From assembly GCF_000376845.1 (NCBI RefSeq), contig NZ_AQXY01000016.1:1-38610 (forward strand): a DNA stretch of 38,610 nt, written 5' to 3'. The notes below the pieces were generated by a model. The model did not search any database. It had not been told where the DNA came from and worked only from the letters and a program-made list of their open reading frames with translations. Below, in pieces: positions 25,591 to 30,382 of the stretch. Position 1 is the stretch's first letter, and each line of letters opens with the position of its first letter. The DNA comes from Thioalkalivibrio sp. ALE14 (GTDB lineage: Bacteria > Pseudomonadota > Gammaproteobacteria > Ectothiorhodospirales > Ectothiorhodospiraceae). Position numbers and translations under genes: made by a program.

Positions 25591-25699
25591 GGGTTCGTAT
25601 TATTCTGCCGTGGCAAAGTTTTAGAAATTGGGGCGGCGTCACGATGCCCTTTCGTCCAAACCTGTCATTGAATCGATTTTCAGCATCCGGGAGTTCTGC

Positions 25700-26146
25700 A
25701 TGAGCATGGATAACAAGAAGGCCTCCGATCTGTCGGCCGAAGAACTGTACGCCCTCGCGCGCCAGCGGGAAAAGGAAGAAGCCGAGCGCAAGGAGGCCGA
25801 ACGTCGCCAGAAGCGCGAAAAGCTGATGGAAAAGCGCAAGGAGATGCTGGCGCGCCACCGCAAGGAGCTCAATGAACTGGAGCGTCAGATCCGCGAACTG
25901 GGCGGTCGTGTAGGCCGAGCCGCCAGCACCGGTGGTGCTCGTCGCGGGCGCCGGGCCGGTGGCGAATCCATCAGCCAGAAGCTGTGCGAGATCGTGGCCA
26001 CCCGGCCGGAGATGGGGATCAAGGAGATCAAGGCCGAGGCCGAGAAGGCGGGCCTGGATACCAAGAATATCAGTCAGACCCTGGCCTATCTGAAGCGTCA
26101 GGGCCGTCTGACCTCGCCGCGTCGCGGGATCTACAAGGCGGTCTGA
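25700..26146 (+). CDS. Coiled-coil protein with C-terminal winged-helix-like domain
   Basis: I do not recognise a named family with certainty. The 148-residue product starts MSMDNKKASDLSAEELYALA. A highly charged helical segment (about 18-72, with runs like EKEEAERKEAERRQKREK) is typical of a coiled coil. A basic linker, RRGRRAGG (about 84-91), leads to a C-terminal domain, KLCEIVATRPEMGIKEIKAE through TLAYLKRQGRLTSPRRGIYK. That end looks like a winged helix with a beta-hairpin wing. The layout, an oligomerising coiled coil plus a DNA-binding domain, resembles H-NS/MvaT-style nucleoid proteins in plan, not in sequence. ATG 25700 has GGGAG 6 nt upstream. DNA binding is inference. Confidence 0.75.
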   Translation: MSMDNKKASDLSAEELYALARQREKEEAERKEAERRQKREKLMEKRKEMLARHRKELNELERQIRELGGRVGRAASTGGARRGRRAGGESISQKLCEIVATRPEMGIKEIKAEAEKAGLDTKNISQTLAYLKRQGRLTSPRRGIYKAV

Positions 26147-27702: not shown

Positions 27703-28194
27703 TCAGGTCAGGTGCAGCAGCCAGCGCCGGCGCACGTCGCGCAGGAGGAAGAAGATCAGCGGCCAGAGCAGGGCGCTGGTGATCACGGGAGACCAGTACC
27801 GGATGCTGTCGGGCGGGAATCCGGTGATCCCCTGGGGCCACAGCGCCAGCAGCTTGAACAGGGCGATCAGGGTCGCGACCACGATCATTTGCTGCCAGAC
27901 GGGATACACCCGCAGGCGCGGATGGACCTGCAGCACGATGTAGGTGATGACGGCCAGGGCAATGGCATTCTGCCCCAGCAGCTGGCCCATCAGCGTGTCC
28001 AGCAGTAACCCGGCGACAAAGGCGGTCAGGATGCCGATGCGGGTCGGAAAGGCCATGGCCCAGTAGATCAGGACCAGCGCCAGCCATTCCGGACGCGCGG
28101 GGCGCAGGGTCTCCGGGATCGGCACGATGGCCAGCGCCAGGGCCGCCAGCAGGGTCAGTGCCACCGGCCAGGGGATGCCGATGGCTCGGGTCAT
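27703..28194 (-). CDS. mreD: Rod shape-determining protein MreD
   Basis: MreD is an inner-membrane component of the elongasome that, with MreC and MreB, directs lateral wall synthesis. The 163-residue product (E. coli 162) is almost wholly hydrophobic, with about five or six membrane helices. PARPEWLALVLIYWAMAFPT and FVAGLLLDTLMGQLLGQNAI are characteristic. ATG 28194 overlaps the mreC stop in ATGA. The next gene downstream is DUF1244. Confidence 0.93.
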   Translation of the reverse strand: MTRAIGIPWPVALTLLAALALAIVPIPETLRPARPEWLALVLIYWAMAFPTRIGILTAFVAGLLLDTLMGQLLGQNAIALAVITYIVLQVHPRLRVYPVWQQMIVVATLIALFKLLALWPQGITGFPPDSIRYWSPVITSALLWPLIFFLLRDVRRRWLLHLT

Positions 28195-29120
28195 GGTGTG
28201 CCGGTTGCCTCGTCGTCCGGTTCCTGTTCCGCTGCCGGGGCGTCTGGTGTTGTCTCCATTTCTTCGTCCACATCAAGGGGGGCGATGCCCGACATGATGT
28301 CCTCGGTCCATAGCAGCAGGACCTCGCGGGAGCGGTCCAGCGCCGCCAGCGGCTCGGCCTCGATGCTCAGAAACGGCTGACCCTGCGGCCGCTCGACCGA
28401 GGTGACCCGTGCCACCGGGTAGTCGGCCGGGAAGCGCCCGCCCAGACCGGAGGTCAGCAGCAGGTCGCCGGGTTCCACGTCTTCCTGCAGCGGGACGTGG
28501 CGCATCTCCAGGCGTTGCGGATTGCCGGTACCGACGACCAGCCCGCGCAGTCCGGTGCGCGCACTCAGCACGGGCAGTGCATGGCTGGGGTCCGAGATCA
28601 GCAGCGCAACCGAGCTGGTCAGGCGGGTGGACAGGACCTGGCCGATCACGCCGTCCGCATTGATGACCGGCTGGCCGGCATAGACGTCGTCGGTGCGCCC
28701 CTTGTTGAGCACGATCTGCTGGCGGAAAGGGTCCAGGTCCACGGCCAGGAGCTTGGTGATCTCGACGCGCTCTTCGGCCTGCTGGGCGGTGTTCAGCAGC
28801 GCGCGCAGGCGGTCGTTTTCCAGTTGCAGTGCCTCGAAGCGCAGCTGGCGGGCGCGCAGCTCGGCGTTCTCGCTGCGCAGGATGCGGTTCTCGGTGATCA
28901 GATCCTCGCGGCTGGTGAACGACTCGAATACCCGGGTGACGGCCCGGACCGGCGCGTCCACCGCGACCTGCAACGGGTAGGTGACCGTGGCCAGCGCACC
29001 GCGGACAAACTGCAGTTCGTTGACACGGTGGTCCAGCGCCATCAGCGCCAGGCCCAGCAGGATGACCGCGAGCAGGCGCAGAGTGGGCGAGACACCCAGT
29101 CTGAACAGCGGCTTGCTGAT
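28191..29120 (-). CDS. mreC: Rod shape-determining protein MreC, apparent AUC start
   Basis: MreC is a bitopic inner-membrane protein linking MreB to the periplasmic cell-wall machinery. From 29042 the frame encodes a clear MreC: a coiled coil (about residues 65-105) then two beta domains, with RTDDVYAGQPVINADGVIGQ and FPADYPVARV. The first ATG/GTG/TTG in frame is that ATG, but it lies inside the conserved membrane helix. The preceding in-frame codons read SKPLFRLGVSPTLRLLAVIL, matching the usual MreC N-terminus (E. coli KPIFSRGPS...). No canonical start precedes them before an in-frame TAG at 29147-29145. ATC 29120-29118 sits 7 nt after GGAGG and gives 309 residues. A one-base error making ATG 29125 in frame is the alternative. 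The C-terminal tail is acidic and proline/alanine-rich. Confidence 0.85.
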   Translation of the reverse strand: MSKPLFRLGVSPTLRLLAVILLGLALMALDHRVNELQFVRGALATVTYPLQVAVDAPVRAVTRVFESFTSREDLITENRILRSENAELRARQLRFEALQLENDRLRALLNTAQQAEERVEITKLLAVDLDPFRQQIVLNKGRTDDVYAGQPVINADGVIGQVLSTRLTSSVALLISDPSHALPVLSARTGLRGLVVGTGNPQRLEMRHVPLQEDVEPGDLLLTSGLGGRFPADYPVARVTSVERPQGQPFLSIEAEPLAALDRSREVLLLWTEDIMSGIAPLDVDEEMETTPDAPAAEQEPDDEATGTP

Positions 29121-29264
29121 GGCATGACCTCCGGTTGCGGATCGCGTCTACGGGTCGAACCGCGTCGAGGCATCTTCCCCGCGCGGTCTTGCTGACCGGT
29201 TGGGCCCGGAGTGTAACCCGAACCCCTGCCGTGCGGGGGAGGCGCGGCGGGGCTGAGTCGGGCC

Positions 29265-30382
<1,118 letters not shown>

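Follow-up and report, generated by a model that had tools for sequence, protein, structure and literature searches.

An apparent AUC start codon for mreC in Thioalkalivibrio sp. ALE14, with AUH starts widespread in Gammaproteobacteria and a probable role in limiting MreC synthesis

The mreC gene of Thioalkalivibrio sp. ALE14 is nearly certain, by comparison with its homologs, to start at the AUC codon found at positions 29120–29118 on the minus strand of the 38,610-nt stretch of DNA analysed here (contig NZ_AQXY01000016.1, hereafter the window). AUC is very rarely used as a start codon. Throughout this work, ATH or AUH denotes ATC, ATT or ATA, and ATG, GTG and TTG are referred to as canonical. 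An AUH start of mreC proved to be widespread in Gammaproteobacteria, with AUU and AUA occurring besides AUC, a range that lay beyond the view of the sequence-only reading which this analysis followed up. The best reading of the data, and one that we hold to be probable, is that a near-cognate AUH start of the infC kind has been conserved and limits MreC synthesis, the regulatory role being the part that we infer. The position of the start, its frame, its conservation, its Shine-Dalgarno (SD) context and the lack of any other good start are matters of sequence comparison; a lower MreC output, a response to IF3 and a use in cell-wall elongation would be consequences drawn from them. A limit on MreC supply fits the data.

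Read from the AUC codon, mreC occupies positions 28191–29120 of the minus strand (309 codons plus the stop), and the frame translates as ISKPLFRLGVSPTLRLLAVILLGLALMALD.... The protein was identified as MreC by NCBIfam TIGR00219 (180 bits against a cut-off of 92.75) and by PF04085 (137.5 bits, cut-off 28). The gene order on the minus strand appears to be mreB (29265–30311), mreC and mreD (27703–28194), where mreB was named by eye from its translation and mreD by its position, its ATG overlapping the mreC stop. The gap from the mreB stop to the AUC measures 144 nt (29121–29264); at three loci from other genera (L054, L058 and L060) only 24–27 nt separate the apparent mreB stop from the ATC, as read by eye. 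Elsewhere in the window, an open frame on the plus strand (25628–26146) has a translation that resembles, by eye, an H-NS-type DNA-binding protein.

The sequence-only reading had described GGAGG, then TCATGCC and then ATC on the minus strand, and each of these elements was confirmed: the SD core GGAGG lies at 29128–29132, the spacer TCATGCC at 29127–29121 and the AUC codon at 29118–29120, at a distance of 7 nt (the best match is GGAGGT, also with a spacing of 7). An in-frame upstream stop codon, TAG, is present as had been reported, though the coordinates given for it (29147–29145) were 3 too low and the true ones are 29150–29148. The earlier observation that no in-frame ATG, GTG or TTG precedes the ATG at 29042 also stood, with zero such codons between this TAG and that ATG. 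The latter (29040–29042) is the first canonical in-frame codon of mreC; it has no SD match and lies inside the approximate membrane helix, LLAVILLGLALMAL, which was read by eye at 29034–29075. A start there would lose the membrane anchor, as had been argued. An out-of-frame ATG at 29123–29125, with a TGA that overlaps the ATG at 29042, was likewise found by eye to be as described. No mRNA hairpin was detected over the mreC start, where a 101-nt stretch folds no better than its shuffles (z 0.34). Three open frames in the window (at least 100 aa) begin on an ATH codon 4–9 nt after a GGAG/GAGG-type site without an upstream in-frame canonical codon, and mreC is the only one of the three that also lacks a canonical codon within 25 codons downstream.

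A search of the window's family covered 47 genomes and found mreC in 46, the order-level search returning the same set; 11 of the 14 relatives found in named records are Thioalkalivibrio. The start regions of all 46 loci were read (L001–L030 and L045–L060, with L001 being the window's own locus). In the position of the window's ATC, 44 loci have ATC, one has ATA (L014) and one has ATT (L057). The mreC genes of relatives had been suggested as a check on the proposed start, and they support it, since a canonical codon occupies the aligned site in none of the 46. A locus was termed forced when its site is ATH and, reading on from the upstream stop until five codons past the anchor Phe, no in-frame ATG, GTG or TTG is encountered. 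This was the case for 36 of the 46 loci, nine others having a canonical codon elsewhere in frame and one an open 5′ end. At five of these nine, no 4-nt SD match precedes any such codon; at L023, L026 and L027 a GTG 33 codons upstream is preceded by AGGA at 9 nt, and at L057 a GTG 13 codons upstream, with AGGA 6 nt before it, is a possible start. Six congeners (L009–L013 and L015) possess a TAA or TGA at the second codon upstream of the ATC, which leaves a single codon (GCC, ACT or ACC) in between.

The same loci bear on the proposal, raised as an alternative in the sequence-only reading, that a single-base sequence or assembly error conceals a true start at ATG 29125 or at another canonical codon. 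In favor of this proposal, the window does have an ATG 5 nt before the ATC, but the arrangement is shared by separate assemblies, all 46 loci of the window's family, from separate genomes, having ATH at the site. Moreover, the bases aligned with the out-of-frame ATG in 29 congeneric loci, the window included, read ATG once, GTG nine times, TTG twice and something else 17 times; the ATG is thus absent at this place from the 28 other congeneric loci. We therefore regard an error as hardly credible.

The SD context provides a second line of evidence. A match of at least 4 nt is located 6–7 nt before the site at 42 of the 46 loci of the window's family, and at a spacing of 4–9 nt such matches precede 120 of 146 AUH sites when the family and class loci are taken together; shuffling the 30 nt upstream 200 times yielded a mean of 22.3 matches and a maximum of 36. 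Within the same mreC genes, 46 of 550 internal in-frame ATH codons carry an SD match, and the next canonical codon downstream of the AUH does so in 0 of 147. The remaining 26 of the 146 AUH sites are without a 4-nt match. The pattern of substitution changes at the site as well: among the 29 congeneric loci, the variable columns of codons 2–27 number 11, 8 and 24 at positions 1, 2 and 3, versus 7, 6 and 8 in the 27 nt immediately upstream. ATA is more frequent at the site than at internal Ile codons in the class (23/102 vs 47/405, p 0.006), while the excess in the window's family is not significant (1/46 vs 3/452, p 0.32). As a positive control, infC was found to start on ATT, ATC or ATA at 29 of 30 loci, the last one having been missed by the script; in the window's genome (L162, G000:C31:155758-156261) it has an ATT start, preceded by GGAG at a distance of 7 nt. 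In further genera of the window's family, the infC start is ATC or ATA. Finally, the alignment with the structure PDB 7eft, which we take to be E. coli MreC, begins at residue 2 of that structure, opposite the Lys two codons downstream of the window's AUC, and residue 1 hence falls within one codon of this AUC.

These data also speak to whether translation begins at the helix ATG 29042 or at another internal canonical codon, which would produce a short MreC lacking an intact anchor, perhaps with its translation coupled to that of a leader peptide. Conservation of the helix Met codon (137 of the 147 AUH loci) would suit such an arrangement, as would the residue numbering printed in excerpts of a P. 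aeruginosa study, considered below, which implies an internal annotated start. Nevertheless, an SD match is found before the next canonical codon in 0 of 147 loci, codons 2–27 vary like coding sequence, the membrane anchor would be cut, residue 1 of 7eft lies within one codon of the AUC and no leader ATG is conserved, all of which leaves an internal start very improbable. The version put forward in the sequence-only reading, a translated leader joined to a truncated MreC, did not hold up, since 28 of 29 congeneric loci do not have the leader ATG and the next canonical codon lacks an SD match throughout.

To place the AUC start in a wider context, we turned to the class Gammaproteobacteria, for which a search of 369 genomes gave 333 that matched. 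The best 150 places were taken, four of which belong to the window's family by hand count; 144 of the 146 non-family places together with 12 places from another search constitute the class set of 156 loci. The codon aligned with the window's AUC is ATH at 102 of these 156, which is no unbiased frequency because the rows, from the best 150 of 333 matching genomes, were chosen by likeness to the window protein. Sorting by script returned 88 forced ATH loci, 12 with ATH plus a canonical codon elsewhere and two with ATH and an open 5′ end; the rest comprised 24 whose site is canonical, 21 others, seven without the anchor Phe and two without a hit. L136, one of the 12 that have a canonical codon elsewhere, is a doubtful case and does not enter the SD and duplex-energy counts. 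The site codons of the 102 ATH loci are ATC (40), ATT (39) and ATA (23). Altogether, 124 of the 202 loci examined in the window's family and the class, the window included, are forced. At the level of families, of which there are 89 with the window's own, forced AUH occurs in 52, any AUH in 55 and a canonical start in 17, with both in a single family (f122). Two further loci of the class that are outside all counts, G377 and G249, both have ATH and no upstream in-frame canonical codon. In L090, L175, L203 (f134), L232, L235 and L246 (f111), the start may instead be an ATA or ATC that lies another three codons upstream, which would make the N-terminus slightly longer; L232 has no SD match before this candidate, and all six candidates were kept out of the AUH counts.

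Where relatives start on ATG, their ATG aligns with the window's ATC or one codon after it, and the 131 class loci that could be scored at the F-4 position show ATH in 90, ATG in 17, GTG or TTG in three and anything else in 21. Start-like codons thus fill the AUC position at most of these loci. This result disfavors the idea that an even rarer codon immediately before the AUC (GCC, ACC, GTC, etc.) is the start and that the AUC is a plain Ile codon, an idea to which the presence of one or more codons between the stop and the AUC at many loci lends itself. That preceding codon is not conserved, however, and it is absent from L247, in which the stop touches the AUH; at 14 of the 124 forced loci, the in-frame stop and the AUH have one codon between them or none. 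We give this explanation almost no credence, even less than an internal start. Taken as a whole, the counter-evidence (AUH sites without an SD match, the kept helix Met and the class loci that do not fit) offers no better start for the window gene than the AUC.

Another 20 mreC loci were chosen by hand for variety. The 12 belonging to the class comprise five with an AUH start and seven with ATG, and the eight from outside the class differ at the N-terminus and have canonical candidates. A follow-up set of 16 genomes, drawn from the four class families that contain those five AUH cases and hence chosen with the answer partly known, has AUH in 16 of 16 (11 of 11 in family f160), with no upstream in-frame canonical codon in 12 of the 16. 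Alignments of PDB 6zlv with the MreC proteins of two f160 genomes cover all 176 of its residues and show few differences; we take 6zlv to be P. aeruginosa MreC, and f160 would hence be the Pseudomonas family. Codon 17 of the f160 mreC, counted from the AUC, is a GTG within the helix and is not preceded by an SD match (L278). Excerpts of a paper on P. aeruginosa MreC name the residues Pro114, Phe115, Arg175, Glu188 and Arg190 and place the cytoplasmic part and the membrane region within the first 14 residues (PMC8137920). On three f160 sequences (L301, L303 and L306), these five printed numbers fit one offset only, 16, which indicates that the numbering, as far as it appears in those excerpts and as worked out on PAO1 relatives, fits a start placed at the internal GTG. 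The database entries of Pseudomonas-like mreC may be truncated at the N-terminus. A gene finder limited to ATG, GTG and TTG must misplace the start of an AUH-initiated mreC.

In the mechanism that we propose, the window's mreC would be translated from the AUC by the initiator tRNA, with formyl-methionine as the first residue, on a strong SD site. The AUH start would be an old trait of many Gammaproteobacteria families, within which AUC, AUU and AUA are used but AUG hardly ever. Poor pairing at the third base, discriminated by IF3, would keep mreC initiation below the rate of a canonical codon, and we infer that a strong SD combined with AUH would set a modest, IF3-sensitive rate. The lowered initiation would in turn yield less MreC than MreB, and MreC output may shift with initiation-factor supply, as in the case of infC. 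In the available excerpts of one study, AUG, GUG and UUG are called canonical because they are not discriminated by IF3, as AUU, AUC and AUA are (PMC4611024); a second, likewise available in excerpt, describes a reconstituted system in which strong third-base pairs were tolerated by IF3 and weak ones excluded (PMC10158994). The part of the P. aeruginosa work cited above that deals with MreC levels proposed accumulation beyond a threshold as a possible elongation signal (PMC8137920).

How the start codon changes bears on whether the rate of initiation has been kept by selection. Among the 40 families outside the window's own with at least two scored loci, 14 vary between A, C and T at the third base, as opposed to one family in which AUH and canonical codons are mixed. 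Matches of 4 nt to the SD precede nine of 25 canonical-start loci versus 120 of 147 AUH loci. Duplex energies point the same way, with medians of family means of −7.4 kcal/mol for AUH and −2.4 kcal/mol for canonical starts (53 and 17 families, p 5.6e-6), though in this comparison, as in that of codon mixing, ancestry has not been removed; a tree-based test of start codon against SD strength contained one supported independent pair only. Another canonical codon lies upstream at five of 24 canonical-site loci, whose true start may therefore lie elsewhere. The rarity of AUH/canonical mixing and the weak SD at canonical starts suggest that the rate is under selection.

An alternative with some weight is that the AUH start is a neutral leftover, the strong SD being good enough and no regulation being involved. 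The SD is indeed strong at AUH sites, and a quick gene tree (192 rows, 172 scored) shows no fewer than 17 switches between AUH and canonical codons, besides at least 36 among the AUH codons. On the other hand, AUG is always one base away and G is the commonest base at fourfold third positions (41.5%), yet families exchange A, C and T far more often than they mix AUH with canonical codons (14/40 vs 1/40). We consider neutrality unlikely, while granting it a real share of the probability. The preferred reading, in which the conserved AUH codon limits MreC synthesis, can be extended to a more tentative one: in many Gammaproteobacteria families, the AUH codon of mreC may tie cell-wall elongation to the state of translation initiation, with MreC being the component of the elongation complex that is limiting and responds to IF3, and lineages with AUG would use a weak SD instead to hold output low. 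If this speculative extension is true, MreC would go up when IF3 discrimination relaxes and down when it becomes tighter, and envelope growth would be coupled to protein-synthesis capacity. That the level of IF3 regulates mreC in cells is, by our estimate, similarly doubtful.

The textbook example of a gene with an AUU start is infC, which encodes IF3 and is subject to self-control. Both infC and mreC combine an AUH codon with an SD site, in the same genomes; they differ in that the mreC loci use all three AUH codons. As MreC is no initiation factor, any effect of IF3 on mreC would act on another process. The E. coli mreC presumably starts on AUG (7eft aligns from its residue 2), and L280, L281, L284 and L289 have a homologous mreC with an ATG start. 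By the look of their sequences, we take the ATG-start groups to be enteric-like, Vibrio-like and Burkholderiales-like. The second gene that invites comparison, pcnB, was described in E. coli and so differs from the present case in coming from an organism whose own mreC starts on AUG. According to excerpts of a recent article, E. coli pcnB has an AUU start (Binns and Masters 2002, cited in PMC9410913); like mreC, it is not an initiation-factor gene, and its output is limited by the AUH start, as proposed here for mreC. The article names infC and pcnB as the sole two genes of E. coli with an AUU start (PMC9410913). Among the matches listed in a search of the open-licence PMC literature, there was no report of an AUH start of mreC, which is weak evidence of absence.

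mreC has been reported to be essential in several bacteria. An AUH-start mreC in 52 of 89 families would make weak start codons lasting setters of protein ratios rather than an oddity of IF3, and it would allow control of elongation by MreC dosage to be tested directly.
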